Shown here piece after piece: positions 26,521 to 54,768 of a DNA stretch of 64,000 bases. A program made the position numbers and the translations under genes. Source of the stretch: Chloroflexota bacterium (GTDB lineage: Bacteria > Chloroflexota > Anaerolineae > UBA4142 > SHND01); the NCBI GenBank assembly GCA_029778615.1, contig JAKOPZ010000102.1:1-64000 (forward strand), given 5' to 3'. How positions within the stretch are numbered: position 1 is the first letter of the stretch; each line of letters starts with the position of its first letter. The notes below the pieces were generated by a model. That model was not told where the DNA came from. It saw only the letters and a program-made list of their open reading frames with translations, and did no database searches.

Positions 26521-26734
26521 GAACGGGCGAGTCACCAAACGGTTTGGACAGGCTTGATTGCGAAAATTCTCCAAGAGGTGGGCGAGCCGGGACCGGCGCG
26601 CGGCGCGCGTTAATTTTTATCTTAAGCTTGGTACGATACACTCATGCCAAATTATCGCATTTACTTTGTTCTCCGCCCCGGCGGGACAAACGCGGCATTC
26701 TTTTTTCTGCGCCCCGGCAAGCCGCCATAAAAAA

Positions 26735-26926
26735 ACGGATGCAATGATCCCCGTTCCACTGCGCCGGACCCGCAACTTGGACGCTTGAAGCCGTATCCCT
26801 CACAATCGAATCCATTTGATTCGACGATTTGTGTTGGTGGGACGGCGATTCAGGGGCGGGGGGAGCGAGTGGCGTAACCGACCGTAAGCTGGCATCAAAT
26901 CACGATGCCGCGCTTGCGGTTTTTTG
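26735..26926 (+). ncRNA. Structured leader RNA, copy 1 (riboswitch-like)
   Basis: This ~190-nt stretch shares ordered conserved blocks with 30405-30605: ACGGATGCAATGAT, TGCGCCGGACCCGCA, TTGGACGC, CGTATCC, and GGAGCGAGTGGCGTAACCGA followed by CCGT. Variable stems lie between the blocks, which is the pattern expected of a conserved RNA fold and not of a coding region. TGCG/CGCA can pair around CCGGACC. The last conserved block runs straight into an intrinsic terminator, so the element could switch read-through into the giant surface-protein gene 67 bp downstream. I could not match it to a known riboswitch class. Confidence 0.7.
26881..26926 (+). terminator. Terminator of leader RNA copy 1
   Basis: Outer stem ACCGTAAGC / GCTTGCGGT (one wobble) and inner stem GGCATC / GATGCC are followed by TTTTTT. 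The 5' arm overlaps the conserved CCGACCGT block. Confidence 0.85.
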
Positions 26927-26992
26927 TTTGTTACGAATTAAAAGCTCGCGTGGCGGCGCCATGCAATCCCAACAAATTGTATCGGAGTAACT

Positions 26993-29900
26993 ATGCAAAA
27001 ACATTCGACCTTTTTTCAATGGGTGTTCTTTCTTGTTCGCTTGAGTGTCTGCGCGTTGGTGGTGCTGACGGCGATTGGGGCGTCAAGACAAAGCGCGCAC
27101 GCTGCCGGAACTATCAGCGGCAGAGTGTATCAAGATTTTAATGCGAATGGCATCTATGATACGACCGCGACCTTGAACAACAGCGGTTCGGGAACGATTG
27201 CCGTTGCGGTTGACCGCGGTGTGCAAAGCGTGACGGTGCGCGCGTACGATTCGAGCGGCACACTGCAAGGCAGTGCGACCACCGGCTCGAACGGGTTGTA
27301 CAGCTTGAGCGCGGGTAGCACCGGTCCGTATCGCATCGAATTTGATTCGACCACGTTTCCAAGCGGCTATGTCGCGGCGCCGGCAGGAACGGGGAACGGC
27401 ACAACCGTCCAATTTGTCTCTGATGGAAACACGAGCAACGTTAATTTGGGTTTGGAGCGTCCCGGCGAATATTGCCAAAACAATCCCACGCTCGTGACCC
27501 CTTGTTATTATTTTGGCGCGTCGAATGGCACAAGCGGCGACAATGGCAGCTTTCGCGATGAGGGCACGCTCAAAACATTTCCCTATGCTGCGGGGACGTA
27601 CTATGCGGACACGGTGGTTGCCAATATGCAGAATACGCTCAACACCAATTGGGACCAACCGACGGCGAGCAATCTCACCACCTTTGGTACGATTGGCGCA
27701 ACATGGGGCATCGCGTATCGGCGTTCTACGGAGCGTCTGTATGTCGCGGCATTTTACAAACGCCATTCGGGTTTCGGACCCGGCGCGGATGGCGTCATCA
27801 ATAATTCGGATGACCCGGGCGCGGTTTATGTCATCAATCCAAACAGCGGCGCAGTCACGGCAACCTACACAGTTCCAAACGCGACAACGAATCCCCACAA
27901 CACCTCAGATTACAACACGGATAACAACAACAGCGGTTGGGATGGTGTTGGCAAAGCTTCACTCGGCGGCATTGCGCTGAATGACGATGAATCGGTGCTG
28001 TATGTGATGAATTTGCAAAACCGTACGCTGTATGCGTTGAACGCCGGCACGGGCGCAGTATTGAACAGTACCGGCGCATATGGCACCGGCGTCGTGCCGA
28101 CGAATCAAAACACGTTGGCGACGAATGCGTGTACCGTTGGCACAAACGCGGTCAACATTCGTCCCTTTGCGGTGAATTATTATAACGATTATAACGCGTC
28201 CACCAACGACCTTTATGTTGGCATCACGTGTACGGGACAGAGCAATGCAAGCACGAGCAACATGTTTGCGTATGTGTATTCGGTCAATCCGTCCACGCTT
28301 GCGTTCAGTTCCACACCCGTATTCTCGATGGCATTGAACTATGCGCGGCGTTGCGTAAATGATTCCACACAAACTACGGCAATCTGTCAAAGCACATATC
28401 CGGCAGCGTGGAATCCATGGACCACTACGATTACACGGTATGTTCCTTCTGGTGTGGGCAACAACGCAAGCTATCCGCAGCCGTGGCTCACCGATATTGC
28501 ATTTGATAATGGCAATCTCATCTTGGGGCTGCGTGACCGTGCGGGCGACCAGTTTGGACTTTACACGACGGAAACTCCCTCTACGGGAAACAGTTTTACC
28601 GCGCGCGGCATTGGCGGTGGGGATACTCTGCGCGCGTGCGGCAGTCCGGCAACGGGCTGGACGCTCGAAAGCAATGGTCGCTGTAACAGTATTGGAAACG
28701 CGCCCCAAAACACCTCTCAAGGTCCGGGCAACGGCGAATATTATTACGAAGAAAATTATGCGCGCTGGCACGATGAAGTTTCAACAAATGGCTTGATGCA
28801 AATTCCCGGTTATCCCGATGTGGTGACGAATGTGTACGACCCAATTCGAAGTACGGATTCCATTGACTCTGCGCCCTATTCCGGCGGCACGCGCTGGCTA
28901 AGCAACGCGGGCGCGGGCGCCAACAACAGCAGCGCGGGCAGCACGAGCAAAGGGTATCGCCTCTATCAATCTGCGTTTGGGGGCGGCACGACTCCGACCA
29001 CCGCCAAATTTTTTGGCAAAGCGAATGGCTTGGGCGACCTCATCGCCTTGTGCAGTTCTGCGCCCATCCAAATCGGCAATCGCGTTTGGAGCGACAGCAA
29101 CAAAGATGGGATTCAGGATGCGAATGAAGCGGGCATTGCGAATGTGCTCGTCCAGCTCACCGACAGCAGCGGCAATGTGCTTGCCACCGCGCTCACCGAT
29201 TCGAGCGGAAATTATTTTTTTAGCAATGACCCGCGCGGTTATCCTTCCGGCGGCAACAATGCGCCGAACGCGACGAGCGGCGGAGGCGTAAGCGGCGGTT
29301 TCAGTCAAGATAATCAAGGCGGAAGTGCCAGTACGGCAAGCTCTAAATTTGGGATTCTGGGATTGGTTGCAGGTGGCACCTATTTTGTCCGCATTGACCG
29401 CAGTCAAACCGCGCTTAATGCGCTTACAAATTTGTCTCCGGCAAATGTTGGCAGCAATGCCTTTATCAATTCCAAAGGCACTGCCACAACGCTCAACTCT
29501 GTCAATTACAGCCGCGCGAGTGTGACGCTCGGCTCGGCGGGAAACAACGACCATCGTTATGATTTTGGTTTTTATAGCACGCCGACGGCAATTGACTTGG
29601 GCGAGGTACAAGCCAAAGCGAACGACGATGGCAGTGTGCTGGTCAAGTGGGAAACCCTCGACGAAAGCAATCTGCTCGGCTTTAACGTGCTCCGCAGCGC
29701 CAAGAAAAATGGCGCCGTCACCCAACTCAATGCGGAACTGGTCGCCGCGCGTTCGGTCGGACAACTCGCCGGCAATCGTTATACCTTCCGCGACTCGAAC
29801 GTTCAAGGCGGCAAGCGCTATTTCTATCGCATTGAGCTGGTGCGCCCGAACGGCACAAGTGAAACGAGCGCTGCGGTGGTCGTGAGAACTAAAGTGACAA

Positions 29901-30247
29901 GCAGCGCGTGCAGCGGCAAACCGAACGTGCCGACGTTGGCGGGACCGGAAGATGGGAAAAAAGTAAAGAAAGGCAAAGTGACCTTCACGTGGAATCCGGT
30001 CGAATGCGCGGTGAGTTACAAGTGGCAGCTGCGCGGCGATGCGTCGGATGGCGAATCTATCGCGAGCAAAAAAGATTTGACGACAACGCAGACGAGCATC
30101 AAAAAGTTGCAGCCGGGACGGACGTATTACTGGCGCGTGCAAGCGTGCAATGCGGCGGGCAAGTGCAGTGCGAGTGAATGGTCGAGCATCGTCGTCAAGC
30201 AGCCGAAAGAGAAGCAGAAACAAAAAACCAAGTCAACCACCGAGTAA
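26993..30247 (+). CDS. Large secreted SdrD_B-domain surface protein (1084 aa)
   Basis: An exported protein with a signal peptide (about 8-36). An N-terminal SdrD_B-like domain ([17 protein letters not shown]) is followed by a region of about 500 residues rich in Asn, Thr and Tyr that looks like a beta-propeller or lectin-like body ([41 protein letters not shown]). A second SdrD_B domain ([23 protein letters not shown]) leads to a beta domain starting [21 protein letters not shown] and a C-terminal Fn3-like cassette ([19 protein letters not shown]...) ending in [11 protein letters not shown]. No LPXTG or PEP-CTERM anchor is visible. It is paralogous over its length to the 2284-aa protein at 31350 and lies under the leader RNA at 26735. 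Confidence 0.87.
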
Positions 30248-30270
30248 GGGGAACCCCGGTGCGCCCCTGA
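29904..30270 (+). repeat. 367-bp C-terminal cassette, copy 1
   Basis: Identical except for two bases to 37861-38227. It covers the last ~114 codons of both giant genes, the shared stop and about 23 bp of 3' sequence. Flanking coding sequence is far more diverged. Confidence 0.93.
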
Positions 30271-30276
30271 ATCCAG

Positions 30277-30314
30277 ATCTCATGCCGCAGTTGAGCGGCA
30301 TGAGATTTTTTTTG
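30277..30314 (+). terminator. Intrinsic terminator after the 1084-aa surface protein
   Basis: Stem ATCTCATGCCGC / GCGGCATGAGAT with an AGTTGA loop is followed by TTTTTTTT. Confidence 0.92.
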
Positions 30315-30404
30315 TTAATCGGCATCTTAACTTTGCTCTTGTAGAATTCACGCAGATTTATCCTGCCGCGCACGCTTGCGGCAAACCTCATACACACAAT
30401 AGTA

Positions 30405-30605
30405 ACGGATGCAATGATTCCCAGTCCTTGCTGCGCCGGACCCGCAGAATTTGGACGCCTGGAATCGTATCCACGAACGCAAGATAGAATTTCCACTTGC
30501 GCGTTTCGTTTTCGTGGAGAGATTCTGAATGGGCTGGGCGGAGCGAGTGGCGTAACCGACCGTGACTTGTGCTGTAGTACAGCATGTGGTCGCGGTTTTT
30601 TGTTT
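30405..30605 (+). ncRNA. Structured leader RNA, copy 2 (riboswitch-like)
   Basis: Conserved blocks occur in the same order as copy 1: ACGGATGCAATGAT, TGCGCCGGACCCGCA, TTGGACGC, CGTATCC and GGAGCGAGTGGCGTAACCGA. The intervening stem differs in sequence but can still pair (CACGAAAACGAAACGCGC-type arms, CCACGAA with TTCGTGG). A terminator (ACCGTGAC / GTCGCGGT with inner TGCTGT / ACAGCA, then TTTTTT) closes the element. It precedes the small secreted GYWKN protein gene by about 90 bp. Confidence 0.7.
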
Positions 30606-30695: not shown

Positions 30696-31178
30696 ATGTT
30701 TCGAGTTCTGTCTTTTTCAATGCTTGTGCTGGTAACGCTGGCGAGCATTGTGATTGTTGCACCATCTGCAAGCGCTGCACCGTCGCAAATCAGTGACAGT
30801 GCATGTGCGGCAATTTATAGTCCGGGCTATTGGAAGAACTGGAAGAATCATTACACTGCCCAAGAATTCCAGGGAATTGTTTCCAACACAATTCACTTTT
30901 CATCCTTGACTCCTGCAGAGGCAGTAGCCATTCTGAACAATAACCGCAATCAGTTTCAACGGCATTTGCTTTCCGCTGAATTGAACGCGGCGAACGACCC
31001 TTCGTTCGCCTATGGCTATTATGTCTATGGCGACCTCTTTATTTCGGTTTTTGAACTCCTCGATACCGCGTACAACACTTCTTCCCCGAGCGCGAACTTG
31101 GACGATGCCATTCGCTATATTGGCAGTAACGGTGAAGGCGCGTCGAGCTCCAGTTGTCGCGTGATTGGACGCATCTAG
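30696..31178 (+). CDS. Small secreted protein with a GYWKN motif
   Basis: A 160-residue protein with an AAGGAGGT site. The signal peptide spans about 1-28 (LSFSMLVLVTLASIVIVAPSASA). The mature N-terminus has SPGYWKNWKNHY, a GYWKN motif that I recall from secreted bacterial and archaeal proteins, often beside SdrD_B or anchor domains. The remainder is helical (FQGIVSNTIHFSSLTPAEAVAILNNN, RHLLSAELNAAND). Two cysteines (about 36 and 153) could form a disulfide. It sits between the two giant SdrD_B genes and shares the leader-RNA type of the first, so a joint role in a surface structure is likely. Confidence 0.8.
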   Translation: MFRVLSFSMLVLVTLASIVIVAPSASAAPSQISDSACAAIYSPGYWKNWKNHYTAQEFQGIVSNTIHFSSLTPAEAVAILNNNRNQFQRHLLSAELNAANDPSFAYGYYVYGDLFISVFELLDTAYNTSSPSANLDDAIRYIGSNGEGASSSSCRVIGRI

Positions 31179-31349: not shown

Positions 31350-34300
31350 ATGAAACCATTCCAACTGCATTCGTTGGTCCGTTATGCCATGCAGCGTAGC
31401 ATTGTCCTGCCAATGTTTTTTGCGTTGGCGTTGTATCTCGTGGCGAATCTGGGCGCGCCGGGCAATATCGCTTATGCTGCCGGAACGTATACCGGTACCG
31501 TGTTTATTGATTACGATAATGATGGCGTGCAGGATGCGAACGAGCCCGCGCAAAGTGGGATTGCTGTTGCTCTCTTTGACGTGAACGGGAATCGCTGCAC
31601 GACCACAACGAACTCAAGCGGCGTGTGGAGCATAAATTCCAGCACCTGTGGCGGACTGTCTGCAGGACCCTATCGCGTGGAATTCACTATTCCCGCTTCT
31701 TTTTCCTACTTTCAACCGGGCGCTGTCGGCACGGGCAATTCCACGTCTGTCGTTTTTGTTGCCGATGGCGGCGCAACGGTTAATTTTGGACTCATGTCGC
31801 CGGATGAATATGCCGGTGCGGCAGATGTTCCACTCGTCACTTCAAACAACTCAAACCCGGGTGCGTCGTCAACCAAAACGAGTTCGACGACGAACCCAAG
31901 CGTGCTCGCTTGGCCCTACAATGCAACGGCTCCTTCGACTTTCAATCCAAACGACCCGGACCCGACGCGCAGCATTTCTTTTAGCGGCATGGGTTCGACA
32001 TGGGGTTTGGGCATTCAACGCAGCAATTTGCGCGCCTATTTTTCTGCCGCGTTGGTGCGGCATGTTGATTTAGGACCGGCAGCTCGCCCAACAACCGGCG
32101 CAGGAAACCAAAGCAAAGCAGTGGACGGCGTGTACATGGTGGACATGAGTAGTACGAGCGGAACTCTCGCCGGCTACTTTACTCTGAATGGCGTCAGCCC
32201 CGCAAATGGAAACGCCGGGGCGATTAATCTCGGCTCGGTAACGCGAAAAATCATCACTACAGCCGTAGATACAACCGGTACGACCGGGACAAATCAAGAC
32301 TTGAATGCGCTCAGTACAACGAACGCCGAGAGCTTTGACCGCGATGCATTTGGCAAAGTGGCAACGGTTGGTTTTGGCGGCGCAGAGGTCAGTTCTGACG
32401 ACAAATACCTTTGGCTCGTCAATCTTAACCAAAAATCACTCATTCGTGTTGACATTACCAACTATTCTTCACTTCCGACCGGTGGCAGCACGCCCAGCGC
32501 GAGCTTGGTTTCGCATTACACAATTTCTACATCGGGCCTGTCCGCATGTGGCAGCGGAGGAACCTATCGTCCCTGGGGTCTAAAATTGTATCGCGGACGC
32601 GGCTATGTTGGGATCACCTGCGATGTGTTAAATGCGCAAGGCACCGCCGATGCGTGGGTGCGTTCCTTTGATTTGAATGACCCCACTGCCGGATTCACCA
32701 CCGAGGTAAGTATTGACCTGAGCCGGAATACTTCTGGGGGAGCATCGGGTTACAGCCGAGAACAAACGAACAACACCGTAAATACGAACACTACTTTTGC
32801 GAACCGCTGGAACGATTGGCTCAATTCGTTTGATGCCCGAACCGGCATTGCTTACGAGACCACTGGAACAAATTGGGAAGCGTCACGCCCGCAAGCTTTG
32901 ATTGGCGATATTGAGTTCACGGATAGCGGGGATATGGTGATAGGAATGCTGGACCGTTTTGGGATGCAGTCCGGCTTTTTGAATTACAGCACCAACCCGG
33001 CAGACGATACGAGCGGCAGCCAGCAACTCTACTCGGCAAATGCAGGCGGAGATTTGATTCATGCCTGCAGATCCGGAAGCTCATATATTGTTGAGGGTTT
33101 TTCGGGATGCACCATTGACAACGATACGGGTCCCCAGAGCGGTCTAACGAACGACGGACCAAACAGCGTTGGAGAATATTACTACGATGATTATGCATAT
33201 TTTGGCGGCACTGTCACGCACTTTGAGGTAGCTTCAGGAGGGCTAGCCGTTCGTCGTTCTACGACCGAAGTCGTTTCAACCGTTTTTGACCCGGTTCGGG
33301 AAAATGCGAATTATCAACAGGGTGTCCGCTGGTTTGACACAAACACTTCGAGCGGCAATTCTACCCGCGGGACTGCTTTGCGGTCCTATCAGGCATGGCC
33401 CGTTTCCGGCGGCAACACGTCAAAAGCAAATGGCTTGGGTGATATTGAGCAGTTGAATGTCGCGCCGTTAGAACTTGGCAACCGCGTTTGGCGCGACGAT
33501 GATGGAGATGGAATACAAGACCCGAATGAAATGGCAGTCGCCGGCGTAACGGTTCAATTGTTACGCGGGGGAAATGTCGTTGGAACTGCCGTTACCAACT
33601 CCAAAGGCGAATATTATTTCACCAGCACACCGGGTACCAACGACTCGAATACGAGTGACAACATTGGGCAAGTGAACGACAGCAGCAACGGAATTTTGCG
33701 GAACACCGCGTATGTGGTTCGCATCAATCCTACAGTCGGTAACAATGCCGCTTTATTGAGTGGATTGAATCTCACAACTGCGAATGCAAGTGACAGCGGC
33801 GCAGGCGATTCCGGTGCCAACGCGGACGCGCGCGATTCGGATGCCACGCTGTCGAGCAGCAACTATGAAATCTCCTTGACCACCGGCGGCGCGGGAGCAA
33901 ATAATCACACGAGCGACTTTGGTTTCACCCCACTCGGCGCCATCGGCAATCGCGTGTGGCTCGACGAAGACTCGAACGGCTATCAGGATGAAGGCGAAGA
34001 CGGACTGCCGAACATCACTGTTCAACTGAAAAACAGTGGCGGCACCGTCATTGCGACCACCTACACCGACGCCAACGGAAACTATTTGTTCAAAGACCTT
34101 CCGGCGGGCAGTTACTTTGTGCAGGTCTTGAGCGGCAGCGTGCCGACAGGTCTTTCGCAAACAACAACATATCCCAACAACGGCGCGGATTTGTTTAATC
34201 AGAATCAAAGCAGCGGGAACGGGTATGCTGTCACCTTGAGCGCGGGACAAGAAAATCTCACCGCCGACTTTGGCTACAACTGGAATCCGACGAGCGATGT

Positions 34301-37300
34301 CACAACGGGCGGCGCAGTGAACGCGACTGCCGCACTGGGCGACCGCGTGTGGATTGACATTAACGGCAACGGCTATCAAGACCCGTTCGAAGTCGGCGTG
34401 CGCGGCGCAACCGTCACGCTTTACTATGCCGCGCAAAACGATGGTGTGTATGACGATGTATATAACGTTGGCGGTTATACGCCAACGCGTACCACCGATT
34501 CTAACGGCAACTATATGTTTGACGGTTTGCCGCCCGGCGCGTATGTTGTCCAAGTAACGAGTGACAGCGGCGCGAGTCACGCCATTCTCACGGCAGGGCA
34601 ATACAATCAAACCGGCGACCCCGAACATTGGGGCACCACCGGCACCAATAACGACAATAAAACCACCACGCCCGTTGTTCTCGGACCCGGCGATGTTTTC
34701 CTCAACGCGGACTTTGGCTATCAACCCAATGGCGCGGTGCTTGGCAGCATCGGCAACTTTGTGTGGTTTGACCGCGATGCCGATGGCGTCGGTCCGAATG
34801 TGGACGCCGATGGCGCGGGTTCCGGGTCTGCCGAAACGCATGGCGCGTCCGGCACCGCCGACAGTGAAGAAGGCATCGGCGGCGTCTCGGTCTCGCTCAT
34901 TCGTGATACGAATGGCAACGGCGTGTGGGACAGCGGCGAACCCATTATTGCGACGCAATTCACTTCGGACGGAACCCAAGATGTGGATGGCGATGGAAAT
35001 GTGGATGCCAAAGGCGCATATCGCTTCCGTGGTTTGCAATTGACCGACGGCAGCGGTAGTGACGATTATCTCGTGTGGGTGAATGATACCAACCGCGTGT
35101 TGGACGGCTTGCGCGCGACGTATGACAAAGATGGTAGCAGCGCGCCTTCCAGTGGTGTGGTCACTGGACTCGGCATCAGCGCCGTCACAAATCTTGGCAC
35201 AACCGGCGGCACACCGTATGGCACGAACGACGCGACCGACCAGGACTTTGGCTACACCGGCGATGGCAGCGGACAGCGCACTTCGAGCGCGGTCTTGACT
35301 TCGCCCACGAACAGCGGCGTCATTGGCGACCGCGTGTGGTTGGACATCAATAACAATGCTGCTCAGGATTCCGGTGAATTGGGTATCCCCGGCGTGCGCG
35401 TGAATTTGTATGATTCCAGCGGCGGACTCGTCGCGACCACACTCACCGGTGCAGACGGATATTACTTGTTCCCGAACTTGCCGACGAGTGCAGGTGGAAT
35501 TGCTTACACTGTCAAAGTGGATACCACAACCCTGCCCGGGGGTTTGACGCAAACCTATGATGCAACGAATCCAACGACAGACAGCACTTCGACCGTCACG
35601 TTGACCAATGCTGCTCCGTCAAATCTTCTGCAAGACTTTGGCTATCGCGGCACAGGCACCGTCGGCAACTTGGTGTGGAAGGACTTGAACGCGAACGGCG
35701 TGTATCAAGCGAATGGCGCGGATGGCGTGGGCGGCACCGAAGACGACGAAACGGGCATCAGCGGCGTCACGCTCGACATTTACTTTGACACGAATCGCAA
35801 CGGCAAAATTGACCCGGGCGAACCGAAACTCGGCACAACCACCACCGACGCGAACGGCGCATACTCGTTCAGCGGACTCCCAACGAATGATGGCAGCGGC
35901 AGCGCATATTACGTTGTGGATGTGACCGACAACAAAGGCATTCTCGCCGGCTATTGGCACTCGCTCGGAACGGCAGGCAGCGATAACAACAGCCAAACCG
36001 ACCCGTATGGCGTTTCCATCTCGCCCGGCTCGCCCGACAATCTCACCGCCGATTTTGGTTACTATCCCAAATTCGCCGCGCTCGGCAACTATGTCTTTAA
36101 CGACGCGAACGCGAACGGTATTCAAGATAGCGGCGAAGTCGGCATCAACGGCGTCGTCGTTCAATTGACCATCACGTATCCAAACGGAACGACGACAACG
36201 CTCTATACGACGACGGGCGATGACCCGAATACCAACGGCACACAAACCGGTTGGTACAGTTTCGGCAATCTTTTGCAGGATGAAAATTACAACACAACCG
36301 GCGGCAGCGGACCTACGTTCTCGATTTCGGTTGTGACGGCAGACAATACGGGTGCGCTCGCAAATCTCGTCAAAACAAACATTGACCAGGGCGCGAATGA
36401 CAAAACAGACGCGGACAATCCGGCAGGCGTCAGCGCCACCGCGCTCAAAGGTGTAACAACGGTCAGCCAAAACGCGACCGCCAACAATGAATCCACGATT
36501 GCGAGTTACGACTTTGGCTACACCGCGCCCGTGAATCTCGGCGACCGCATCTGGTATGACACAAACAACAACGGCACGTTGGACGCGGGCGAAGCGGGCA
36601 TCAACGGCGTGACCGTGCGTTTGTATCGCGACACGAACGGCAACGGCACTTTTGATTCCGCCACCGACACGCTCGTCGCCACGACGACGACGGCGAACGC
36701 GAGCGGCAATGACGGTACCTATAACTTTACACTGCTCACGCCATCCATCGAAGCAACCATCAGCACACATTACTTTGTCGTACTGCCTGACACGAACTTT
36801 ACAAGCGGCGGCGCACTGGCGAGTTATCTGAACAGCAGCAGCACGGTTAGCGCGAACAGCGACACCAACAACGCCGACCACGGACGCGTCATTGGCACGC
36901 TCGGACAAAGCGGCGGCTATGTGGTGACCCAAAACGCCGCCGGCAACAACAGCGGCGCGGTCAGCGTCACGCTCGGCGGCGAACCGACCAACGACGGCGA
37001 TGGCAACAACGGCAATCTCACACTGGACTTTGGTTTCTATCGTCTCACCGCAAGCGGCAAAGTGTGGTTGGACAATGGCGCGGGCGGCGGCACATCCAAT
37101 AACGGCATGTTGGACGGCAGCGAAGGCGGTCTCAACAGCGTGCGCGTCGAACTGTACAAGAACGGCGTGTTGGTAGCGGTTGCGTTCACCAACTCGAGCG
37201 GCGATTACAGCTTTACGCAGCAGACCGATTCAAACGGCAATGGCAACAACCGACCGCTCCAACCCGGTTCGGACTATACCATCTCGATTCCGTCGGGGCA

Positions 37301-38204
37301 GAATGTTCTCGGCACGCTCAAGAGCAGCGCGGACGTTTCCACTACGACGAATCCGACCAACACCGGCAACGGCGTCCAAACAGACGACAATGGCGTTGGC
37401 ACCGATCCCGGCTCCAGTACGATTACCACGAGTACGTTCACACTCGGCGCGACCGGTACAAGCAATACGGCAGGTTCGACCTTTACCAATTCGAATGGAA
37501 CGACATCGCAGCCGACCATTTACTTTGGCTTTGCACCCGGTTCGCCCACATCCATTGACCTTGGTCAACTGACTGCCCAAGCGAATGACGATGGCAGTAT
37601 CACAATCGAGTGGGAAACCTTGAACGAGAGCAACATCCTCGGGTTTAATGTCCTGCGCAGCGAACGCAAGAATTCGGAACAAACGCAGGTGAACACCGAA
37701 CTCGTCGCGTCAGAGTCCGTTGGAGAAATTACAGGCAACGTGTACACATTTACGGATACGGGAGTCGCGACGGAAAAGAAATATTTCTACCGTCTCGAAA
37801 TTGTCCGTCCGAATGGCGAGAACGAATTCACCGAGCCCGTAAGCGTAACGACGACCGCCGGCGCGTGCAGCGGCAAACCGAACGTGCCGACGTTGGCGGG
37901 ACCGGAAGATGGGAAAAAAGTAAAGAAAGGCAAAGTGACCTTCACGTGGAATCCGGTCGAATGCGCGGCGAGTTACAAGTGGCAGCTGCGCGGCGATGCG
38001 TCGGATGGCGAATCTATCGCGAGCAAAAAAGATTTGACGACAACGCAGACGAGCATCAAAAAGTTGCAGCCGGGACGGACATATTACTGGCGCGTGCAAG
38101 CGTGCAATGCGGCGGGCAAGTGCAGTGCGAGTGAATGGTCGAGCATCGTCGTCAAGCAGCCGAAAGAGAAGCAGAAACAAAAAACCAAGTCAACCACCGA
38201 GTAA
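31350..38204 (+). CDS. Giant SdrD_B-repeat surface protein (2284 aa)
   Basis: An exported protein with a long signal region (about 1-48). An N-terminal SdrD_B domain (GTVFIDYDNDGVQDANEPAQSG) and a body of about 600 residues similar to that of the 1084-aa paralogue (STWGLGIQRSNLRAYFSAALVRH) are followed by some nine further SdrD_B-type domains. Each opens with a variant of LGDRVWxDxNxNGxQDxxE, for example LGNRVWRDDDGDGIQD, IGNRVWLDEDSNGYQD, LGDRVWIDINGNGYQD, IGDRVWLDINNNAAQD and LGNYVFNDANANGIQD. The Asp-rich loops fit Ca binding. The end is the same beta/Fn3 cassette as in the paralogue. It is probably an adhesin or matrix fibre. No anchor motif or catalytic domain is seen, and no leader RNA of the neighbouring type lies upstream. 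Confidence 0.88.
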   Translation: MKPFQLHSLVRYAMQRSIVLPMFFALALYLVANLGAPGNIAYAAGTYTGTVFIDYDNDGVQDANEPAQSGIAVALFDVNGNRCTTTTNSSGVWSINSSTCGGLSAGPYRVEFTIPASFSYFQPGAVGTGNSTSVVFVADGGATVNFGLMSPDEYAGAADVPLVTSNNSNPGASSTKTSSTTNPSVLAWPYNATAPSTFNPNDPDPTRSISFSGMGSTWGLGIQRSNLRAYFSAALVRHVDLGPAARPTTGAGNQSKAVDGVYMVDMSSTSGTLAGYFTLNGVSPANGNAGAINLGSVTRKIITTAVDTTGTTGTNQDLNALSTTNAESFDRDAFGKVATVGFGGAEVSSDDKYLWLVNLNQKSLIRVDITNYSSLPTGGSTPSASLVSHYTISTSGLSACGSGGTYRPWGLKLYRGRGYVGITCDVLNAQGTADAWVRSFDLNDPTAGFTTEVSIDLSRNTSGGASGYSREQTNNTVNTNTTFANRWNDWLNSFDARTGIAYETTGTNWEASRPQALIGDIEFTDSGDMVIGMLDRFGMQSGFLNYSTNPADDTSGSQQLYSANAGGDLIHACRSGSSYIVEGFSGCTIDNDTGPQSGLTNDGPNSVGEYYYDDYAYFGGTVTHFEVASGGLAVRRSTTEVVSTVFDPVRENANYQQGVRWFDTNTSSGNSTRGTALRSYQAWPVSGGNTSKANGLGDIEQLNVAPLELGNRVWRDDDGDGIQDPNEMAVAGVTVQLLRGGNVVGTAVTNSKGEYYFTSTPGTNDSNTSDNIGQVNDSSNGILRNTAYVVRINPTVGNNAALLSGLNLTTANASDSGAGDSGANADARDSDATLSSSNYEISLTTGGAGANNHTSDFGFTPLGAIGNRVWLDEDSNGYQDEGEDGLPNITVQLKNSGGTVIATTYTDANGNYLFKDLPAGSYFVQVLSGSVPTGLSQTTTYPNNGADLFNQNQSSGNGYAVTLSAGQENLTADFGYNWNPTSDVTTGGAVNATAALGDRVWIDINGNGYQDPFEVGVRGATVTLYYAAQNDGVYDDVYNVGGYTPTRTTDSNGNYMFDGLPPGAYVVQVTSDSGASHAILTAGQYNQTGDPEHWGTTGTNNDNKTTTPVVLGPGDVFLNADFGYQPNGAVLGSIGNFVWFDRDADGVGPNVDADGAGSGSAETHGASGTADSEEGIGGVSVSLIRDTNGNGVWDSGEPIIATQFTSDGTQDVDGDGNVDAKGAYRFRGLQLTDGSGSDDYLVWVNDTNRVLDGLRATYDKDGSSAPSSGVVTGLGISAVTNLGTTGGTPYGTNDATDQDFGYTGDGSGQRTSSAVLTSPTNSGVIGDRVWLDINNNAAQDSGELGIPGVRVNLYDSSGGLVATTLTGADGYYLFPNLPTSAGGIAYTVKVDTTTLPGGLTQTYDATNPTTDSTSTVTLTNAAPSNLLQDFGYRGTGTVGNLVWKDLNANGVYQANGADGVGGTEDDETGISGVTLDIYFDTNRNGKIDPGEPKLGTTTTDANGAYSFSGLPTNDGSGSAYYVVDVTDNKGILAGYWHSLGTAGSDNNSQTDPYGVSISPGSPDNLTADFGYYPKFAALGNYVFNDANANGIQDSGEVGINGVVVQLTITYPNGTTTTLYTTTGDDPNTNGTQTGWYSFGNLLQDENYNTTGGSGPTFSISVVTADNTGALANLVKTNIDQGANDKTDADNPAGVSATALKGVTTVSQNATANNESTIASYDFGYTAPVNLGDRIWYDTNNNGTLDAGEAGINGVTVRLYRDTNGNGTFDSATDTLVATTTTANASGNDGTYNFTLLTPSIEATISTHYFVVLPDTNFTSGGALASYLNSSSTVSANSDTNNADHGRVIGTLGQSGGYVVTQNAAGNNSGAVSVTLGGEPTNDGDGNNGNLTLDFGFYRLTASGKVWLDNGAGGGTSNNGMLDGSEGGLNSVRVELYKNGVLVAVAFTNSSGDYSFTQQTDSNGNGNNRPLQPGSDYTISIPSGQNVLGTLKSSADVSTTTNPTNTGNGVQTDDNGVGTDPGSSTITTSTFTLGATGTSNTAGSTFTNSNGTTSQPTIYFGFAPGSPTSIDLGQLTAQANDDGSITIEWETLNESNILGFNVLRSERKNSEQTQVNTELVASESVGEITGNVYTFTDTGVATEKKYFYRLEIVRPNGENEFTEPVSVTTTAGACSGKPNVPTLAGPEDGKKVKKGKVTFTWNPVECAASYKWQLRGDASDGESIASKKDLTTTQTSIKKLQPGRTYYWRVQACNAAGKCSASEWSSIVVKQPKEKQKQKTKSTTE

Positions 38205-52749: not shown

Positions 52750-54768
52750 CTATTTCATAATGGTCGCGCCGGGCACGTCATTGCCTGTGAGGTCTTTGTA
52801 CGAGAGCTGCAAGAGTTCCACCGCGCGTTTAAAGTTGTGAATGGCTTGGGCTTTGCCTTCATTGCCATTGCCTGTTTCCGTTCCCCACATCACGCCATAG
52901 ACGGTGCGGAAATTGTACCAGGCATTGTCAATTTTATCGTCGGTCTGACCATCCGCGCCTTTGGGCAGGGTGGCATACGGATAGCCGGTGTCCACTTTCT
53001 TGAGACCTTTGGCTTCCAATGCTTTCCACAACACGTCCAACAAGCCCTTGACTTCGGTCTGCACGCCTTCGACTTTGCCGTTGCCGTCATAGTCGGCTTT
53101 GGCTTTAAAGTCGAATGTATCCAAACCTTGATGACACGCTTGACATGCAGCGGTGTATTGGAACTTGCGGTCAAGACTGACGGTATTGAACGAATGTCCG
53201 CCGACCTTTTCATAGTACGGGTCTTTGGGGTCCGTAATCGGTGCAGTCATGTGACACGTCACACACGGACCGGGGATGTTGCCCTTGTCATCGCCCACCG
53301 CGCTGAACAGGAACTTGGCGGCATCCGGGTTGTCTTTGGCAGCCGGATTCGGAATCGGCGAGATGCCTACGAGCGCGCCGTGCGGCGAGTTCTGTAGAGT
53401 TTGTCCATAGGTCACACCACCGGTATCGCTGATGAACTCGGCGATACTGTTATAGTGTGGGAACGAACTCTTGATGGCGTCTGCCGGGTCGGTGCGCGAA
53501 TTATGACATTCGAAACACGTTGCCGAGAGACCGACATCTTTGGTGAGTTCAAAGGGCAGCGCAATCGGTTTGCTCATGATGCGGAGTTGGAACGGATTGG
53601 TTGCGTCGTGCGGGTCGTGGCAGGTCGCACAAACGATAGTTTGTTTTTCGTTGACCCATGCCGCTTGGTTGGTTGGGTTTTCCAAGAAGGAAGCGTAACC
53701 CTCACCGGAATGGCAGCGCACACATGCCTGACGCGTTGGACCAATGGGTTCATTGAACGCGGGAGCGTTCGCATCCGAATGCGCGGCGTTCTTGAGTTGT
53801 TCGCCTTTGTCATGGCGGCTGCTCGAGTTGTGGCACACATTGCATGTCCCTTCACTCTGGCTCTTTGCCATGATAGGCAAGCCCTTGTTTACATGGTCCG
53901 CGGCGGGACCGTGACATTGTTCGCAGCCGATAGCTGCCATCGCTTTGACATCGGCGGGCATTGCATCAAAGTTGCTCTTGCCGCCTTTGCCTGCCGCGTT
54001 GATTTGCTCCCAAGTCGGGAACTGCCAATTGGCTTTGGTCGCGGCATCTTTGAAACCGTTTGAATCCGCGCCGACCGGTGGGACATAATAACCCGTAACG
54101 TGACATGCCGCGCAGCGTTCCGTGAAATGGGTGTTCGCGTCGGGAGTCAACGTGTTGTCAATGTTGTACTTGAGCGCGTTGGCATGACCGGTCTTGAGCC
54201 AATCTTCCACTTGCTTGGGATGACACGTCTTGCAAGTCTCGGCATTGTTGCCGATATATGCGCCGGCATAGAGATGGATGCCACCGGCTTGACCGCCGCC
54301 CGGCAGCGAACAGGAAACCGCGTACGCGCCCGGAATATCGGGTGTGAATTCGGTCAAATTCGCTTTGGGGTCTTTGAGCGCGGCTTTTGAATCCGGTGAC
54401 TTGTACAGAGCCCACGTAGGAGTCATGGGTCCCGTATATTCGATATTGTCGGGTTTGCACTCGACGCGCACAGGCACATTAATCGGCACGTTGGGCAAGC
54501 CGCTGGCGCCCATGGCAATCACCGCGTTCGACTCGCCGACTTTGGTGTCGGTGATGATTTTGATTGTGCCGGTAATAGCGTTCGGGTCATTCGGATTCAT
54601 GGTGACCGGAACGATTCGGACTGTGGCGTTAATCGGAGCAGGTGTTGGTTCTTGCGCCGGCGGAGCCGCCTGCGCGGTAAAAGTTGTACTGATTGGTGTT
54701 ACGGCTAACACCGCGACGATTACTCCAATTACAAGGAGTGGAATCGCCAAGAGTTTCCAATTGAACAT
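52750..54768 (-). CDS. Nine-heme exported cytochrome c (c554-like)
   Basis: A 672-residue protein with GGAGG before the ATG. A signal anchor (about 5-28) and an N-terminal beta domain (to about 175) precede nine CxxCH sites: CKTCH, CAACH, CEQCH, CNVCH, CVRCH, CATCH, CFECH, CVTCH and CQACH. ETCKTCHPKQ, CHVTGY and IGCEQCHGPAADH resemble the cytochrome c554 / multiheme-cyt family. It is probably periplasm-like or surface-exposed and takes part in electron transfer; no substrate-site motif (such as the HAO Tyr or NrfA Lys) is recognisable. It is transcribed alone, toward the ccm genes. Confidence 0.9.
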   Translation of the reverse strand: MFNWKLLAIPLLVIGVIVAVLAVTPISTTFTAQAAPPAQEPTPAPINATVRIVPVTMNPNDPNAITGTIKIITDTKVGESNAVIAMGASGLPNVPINVPVRVECKPDNIEYTGPMTPTWALYKSPDSKAALKDPKANLTEFTPDIPGAYAVSCSLPGGGQAGGIHLYAGAYIGNNAETCKTCHPKQVEDWLKTGHANALKYNIDNTLTPDANTHFTERCAACHVTGYYVPPVGADSNGFKDAATKANWQFPTWEQINAAGKGGKSNFDAMPADVKAMAAIGCEQCHGPAADHVNKGLPIMAKSQSEGTCNVCHNSSSRHDKGEQLKNAAHSDANAPAFNEPIGPTRQACVRCHSGEGYASFLENPTNQAAWVNEKQTIVCATCHDPHDATNPFQLRIMSKPIALPFELTKDVGLSATCFECHNSRTDPADAIKSSFPHYNSIAEFISDTGGVTYGQTLQNSPHGALVGISPIPNPAAKDNPDAAKFLFSAVGDDKGNIPGPCVTCHMTAPITDPKDPYYEKVGGHSFNTVSLDRKFQYTAACQACHQGLDTFDFKAKADYDGNGKVEGVQTEVKGLLDVLWKALEAKGLKKVDTGYPYATLPKGADGQTDDKIDNAWYNFRTVYGVMWGTETGNGNEGKAQAIHNFKRAVELLQLSYKDLTGNDVPGATIMK

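Follow-up and report, generated by a model that had tools for sequence, protein, structure and literature searches.

Among the closest described counterparts of the RNAs treated here are the c-di-GMP class II riboswitches of C. difficile, which act as ON switches for pili and for sortase-dependent surface proteins and adhesins (PMC6366702). Tandem class II switches ahead of surface-anchor genes have already been described (PMC9481103), and in Bacillus thuringiensis a class I switch turns on a collagen adhesin via antitermination (PMC4933901). The direction of a switch need not carry over from one species to another, and it varies for class I (PMC6366702). In the open-access literature, no paper was found that joins riboswitch, c-di-GMP and Anaerolineae, and riboswitch control by c-di-GMP seems little studied in this lineage.

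We examined a 64,000-nucleotide stretch of Anaerolineae DNA (the window) in which two structured leader RNAs had been proposed to control secreted-protein genes. Both leaders are members of the known c-di-GMP-II riboswitch class, not a new kind of RNA, and each is very probably an ON-acting class II switch that uses a transcriptional terminator as its expression platform. The novelty of the locus is small, and lies in a peripheral hairpin found at the level of the genus, whose CCGGMCC loop is conserved, and in a long second insert.

Two leaders of the c-di-GMP-II class

The leaders occupy positions 26735-26926 and 30405-30605 on the plus strand, and the five sequence blocks on which the original prediction was built are present in both, in the same order. 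The 20-mer GGAGCGAGTGGCGTAACCGA is found twice, at 26862-26881 and at 30540-30559, and the window has no third match even when three mismatches are allowed (chance expectation with up to three mismatches, 0.01). When the covariance models of Rfam 15 were run against the entire window, exactly two matches reached a gathering score, both of them to RF03169 (c-di-GMP-II-GAG): 30398-30570 with 41.1 bits and 26728-26892 with 40.9 bits, for a cut-off of 40. The margin is about 1 bit in both copies, probably because of their long hairpin inserts. The same inserts are the likely reason why the window copies fall below the cut-off of 53.5 for RF01786, for which copy 2 scored 23.9 bits over a partial stretch and copy 1 was absent among the matches listed; a sister copy on contig C103 of the same genome does pass.

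The original prediction had called the RNA unclassified and had named an Rfam search as the way to overturn that view. Since both copies pass the gathering threshold of a known family, the claim to novelty fails; the resemblance to class II had been missed because the inserts hide it. A partial similarity of the last block to GEMM (c-di-GMP-I) had also been noticed. No GEMM match was found in the window at E<=0.1, where the two RF03169 matches stand alone, and the likeness is instead to c-di-GMP-II: the last conserved block is the 3ʹ half of a class II aptamer, and no relic of class I.

In the RF03169 alignment, block 1 falls within P1 and the 5ʹ core, and the pseudoknot takes its 5ʹ strand from block 3 (TTGGACGC) and its 3ʹ strand from block 5, which also covers the 3ʹ core. 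Block 2 is a hairpin insert, and a second insert, about 67 positions long, includes block 4. In copy 1, sequence and alignment pair the P1 5ʹ strand ACGG (26735-26738) with 26882-26885, and the alignment, together with P2 pairing across relatives, pairs CCCCGTTCC (26749-26757) with GGGGCGGGG (26853-26861) to form P2. The P2 loop carries the peripheral hairpin TGCG-CCGGACC-CGCA (26760-26774, 4 bp), followed by the pseudoknot 5ʹ strand (26777-26784, with U37 at 26778 and G39 at 26780) and by the second insert, a long stem-loop that includes CGTATCC (26785-26852). The 3ʹ core GGAGCGAGTGGCGTAACCGA (26862-26881) then supplies the 3ʹ strand of the pseudoknot and the contacts A69-A74 (26876-26881; contact list from PMC7288161).

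Copy 2 repeats this plan, with P1 formed by ACGG (30405-30408) and 30560-30563, P2 by CCCAGTCC (30420-30427) and GGGCTGGG (30531-30538), the peripheral hairpin extended to CTGCG-CCGGACC-CGCAG (30431-30447, 5 bp), the pseudoknot 5ʹ strand TTGGACGC at 30451-30458, the second insert with its CGTATCC at 30459-30530, and the 3ʹ core at 30540-30559, including A69-A74 at 30554-30559. As had been proposed, stems that differ in sequence between the copies still pair, which applies both to P2 and to the CCGGACC hairpin. P1, P2 and the pseudoknot can all pair with compensatory change, as expected of class II (clan CL00127). Unconstrained minimum-free-energy folds of the whole leaders did not form the aptamer. 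Pseudoknotted aptamers commonly escape such folding, but folding provides no independent support for the aptamer. A candidate switch helix between GUAUCC of block 4 and GGAUGC of the core is pairable in both window copies, but block 4 reads GAAUCC in genome G005 and is missing from the copies of G001, and the helix was rejected as not general.

Covariation across relatives

In 115 related leaders with 104 different P2 5ʹ strands, a mean of 7.45 of 8 P2 positions are paired, compared with 4.15 after the 3ʹ strands are redealt, a comparison in which the observed value is somewhat favoured by the choice of register for best pairing. The pseudoknot pair between positions 40 and 68 played no part in finding the strands, and its counts are therefore free of that choice. 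Among 117 leaders this pair is A-U in 61, U-A in 40 and G-C in 6, and the adjoining triplet is CGC/GCG in 84, CAC/GTG in 20 and TGC/GCA in 9. Covarying pairs, which the original prediction had wanted to see in wider copies, are thus found both in P2 and in the swaps of the 40-68 pair.

Ligand-contact residues and the GAG variant

In the structure PDB 3Q3Z, c-di-GMP is contacted by A13, A14, U37, G39, U60, A61, C68, A69, A70, C71, C72, G73 and A74 (PMC7288161). The consensus is ...UGG.../...GUGCAACCG in RF01786 and ...CGG.../...GCGAGACCG in RF03169; the variant therefore differs by U37->C and A69->G. From these consensus sequences we infer that C37 and G69 define the GAG variant; residues 67-69 probably gave GAG and GCG their names. 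In the window copies, the corresponding sequences are UUGGACGC and GGCGUAACCGA. With numbering transferred through the Rfam consensus alignment, both retain U37, G39, A61, A69, A70, C71, C72, G73 and A74. The exceptions are position 14, which is U (A14->U), position 60, which varies across the family, and position 68, which is U and is matched over the pseudoknot by A40, its swapping partner.

Since no Rfam model scores higher than RF03169 for either copy, the leaders might belong functionally to c-di-GMP-II-GAG and recognize a ligand other than c-di-GMP, or recognize it with altered specificity. This is highly unlikely, because both copies carry U37 and A69 in place of the C37 and G69 of the RF03169 consensus, and because the C37-G69 combination occurs in only 7 of 117 tabulated relatives, one of them a weak and probably spurious match, whereas 104 of the 117 are U37-A69. 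Judged by their contact residues, the window copies can be taken as canonical c-di-GMP-II aptamers, and with U37 and A69 kept and the GAG changes absent, c-di-GMP is the expected ligand. The original prediction had left the ligand open; class and contact residues now predict it. The genome gave nine matches to GGDEF and one to PilZ, so c-di-GMP should be available to the cell.

The RF03169 model thus gathers canonical-type class II switches, and counts of the variant made by score alone would therefore be inflated. GAG-type aptamers with C37 and G69 do occur elsewhere in the class, in leaders of genomes G044, G102, G265 and G292, and one lies within the same genus (G002:C55:50457-50559, L241). 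The paired changes U37->C and A69->G suggest that ligand recognition may be altered in these RNAs, and the C37/G69 leaders of the class offer a good comparison set.

A genus-level peripheral hairpin and a long second insert

The hairpin between P2 and the pseudoknot strand, with the loop CCGGACC or CCGGCCC, is present in seven leaders from three genomes of the genus: two in the window and one on contig C103 of the same genome, two in G001 and two in G005. An eighth hairpin leader (G001:C23) carries the loop CCAGUUC. Changes in the stem are partly compensatory (UGCG/CGCA, AGCG/CGCU, UGUG/CACA). In the set searched, the hairpin is confined to this genus; a class-wide search for its pattern gave mostly chance matches outside it, and the sole match inside an aptamer (G016:C34) sits in a P2 strand. 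The CCGGMCC hairpin is shorter and better conserved than the second insert.

These inserted hairpins may be simple decoration. Conservation of a seven-nucleotide loop hints at a possible contact, and one could imagine a genus-level class II subtype in which the switch is tuned, or given a second input, by a specific contact of the CCGGMCC loop, be it tertiary, RNA-RNA or with a protein, but we regard such a role as unlikely.

A terminator that shares a strand with P1

Each leader ends in an intrinsic terminator whose 5ʹ arm runs on from the last conserved block, as had been proposed. The terminators lie at 26880-26925 (-26.4 kcal/mol, 11 bp in the overlap count) and 30558-30601 (-24.0 kcal/mol, 10 bp in the overlap count). 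In both copies the 5ʹ arm begins at G73, within the contact strand, and the P1 3ʹ strand CCGU (26882-26885 and 30560-30563) doubles as its base. A strand is thus common to aptamer and terminator, and the two folds are mutually exclusive. An overlap between the P1/core strand and the 5ʹ arm of the terminator is seen in 101 of 119 leaders examined, a slightly generous count given that the best T-run within 120 nt was taken and that two of the 119 matches are probably spurious.

This sharing of a strand predicts a switch that c-di-GMP turns on. At low c-di-GMP, the terminator stem would capture the P1 3ʹ strand CCGU, and transcription would halt before the gene. At high c-di-GMP, the ligand would bind at the junction of P2 and the pseudoknot and stabilize P1, which would block the terminator and permit read-through, such that the SdrD_B or GYWKN protein is made. 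The opposite sign is conceivable, given that the direction of class I switches differs between species (PMC6366702), as is an outcome decided by a second input added through the inserts, which are unusual in their length and in the conserved CCGGMCC loop that is kept within the genus. We consider it unlikely that the RNAs, while binding c-di-GMP, act in either of these ways, because P1 and the terminator share a strand in a layout that is family-wide, and no separate anti-terminator arm is visible in either window leader.

Secreted-protein genes downstream

Copy 1 precedes a gene for a 1084-aa secreted protein with SdrD_B and fn3 domains (26993-30247, plus strand, ATG at 26993), and copy 2 precedes a gene for a 160-aa secreted GYWKN protein (30696-31178, plus strand, ATG at 30696, strong Shine-Dalgarno sequence AAGGAGG). 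Each gene has a ribosome-binding site and a signal-like, hydrophobic N-terminus, in agreement with the original prediction of a secreted product behind each leader. A terminator on the plus strand at 30275-30308, behind the first gene, separates two transcription units, and the two copies therefore serve one unit each. For the GYWKN protein, Pfam and NCBIfam gave no match, and the five other genomes of the family that were examined yielded no homologue.

Low scores and the existence of non-functional riboswitch copies in C. difficile (PMC6366702) could be read to mean that these leaders are degenerate relics duplicated along with the island. Such decay is extremely unlikely, as core, P1, P2, pseudoknot, terminator and ribosome-binding site are intact in both copies, and their stems differ yet pair. 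The leaders are real and well built.

The link to secreted proteins extends to wider copies. By a simple hydrophobicity rule, with downstream ORFs chosen automatically, a strong hydrophobic N-terminus is found in 75 of 100 distinct leader targets from the whole class; in the background, 120 ORFs taken from 20 other contigs of the genome of the window, it is found in 24 (odds ratio 12, p ~1e-16). The window itself would have been a misleading background, with hydrophobic N-termini in 27 of its 43 genes, and the 20 other contigs were used instead. Class II leaders before signal-less genes are a minority; two of these (G141:C71 and G204:C27) precede an apparent radical SAM enzyme and a response regulator, their N-termini having been judged by eye. 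Targets in the genus carry SdrD_B, fn3, DUF11, Big_1, thioester and GEVED domains, each of a type common among secreted or surface proteins.

Two secreted-protein genes, one with MSCRAMM-like SdrD_B domains, are thereby placed under predicted c-di-GMP control, which may serve attachment or a sessile state. The notion of a ligand-responsive switch for attachment proteins accordingly survives in its aptamer-terminator layout, its link to secreted or surface proteins and its suspicion of c-di-GMP, and is given up in its novelty and in its likeness to GEMM.

A second SdrD_B protein of the window, of 2284 aa (31350-38204), is 78% identical to the 1084-aa protein (26993-30247) over a C-terminal region of 228 aa, and over the last ~110 residues the two are nearly identical; this similarity suggests that a duplication or a gene conversion took place recently. 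Ahead of the 2284-aa gene, no riboswitch was found.

Further copies in the genome, genus and class

The family is present in 6 of 6 genomes of the genus and, in a class-wide sample of 396 genomes, in 48. Within the genome of the window, contig C2 holds three copies, and contig C103 holds a copy at 53871-53957 that reaches 54.4 bits for RF01786 (cut-off 53.5). Immediately upstream of the latter is a divergent class II-like leader with the CCGGACC hairpin that Rfam missed. This leader (L229, about 4155-3970, minus strand) carries an extra insert of ~50 nt before GGAGC, and with the canonical C103 copy forms a tandem in front of the gene for a secreted DUF11 protein. In genome G016, secreted-protein genes are preceded by an array of two c-di-GMP-II leaders (L182 on contig C34) and by one of three (L177 on C5). 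A loose-pattern scan of the genome contigs returned 118 stretches, none with the class II core by regular expression, and these were set aside as chance matches.

Comparison with known systems

The window copies share with RF01786 (PDB 3Q3Z) the arrangement of P1, P2 and pseudoknot, the contacts U37, G39, A61 and A69-A74, the terminator platform and the surface-protein targets, but their P2 loop holds two additional hairpin domains, and their pseudoknot has the pair A40-U68 in place of G40-C68. RF03169 is the model that scores best for both copies, above its gathering score, although residues 67-69 of the window copies are GUA rather than GAG and the consensus C37 and G69 are lacking. The C. 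difficile switches Cdi-2-1, Cdi-2-3 and Cdi-2-4 (PMC6366702) agree in aptamer class, in terminator control and in their adhesin and pili targets; they come from a distant organism, in which ON action is proven, whereas it is predicted for the window copies from their layout. The tandem arrays described earlier (PMC9481103) likewise have surface-protein targets, and tandems are also seen on contigs C103 and C2 and in relatives, whereas the two window copies each control their own gene, with a terminator between the two units.
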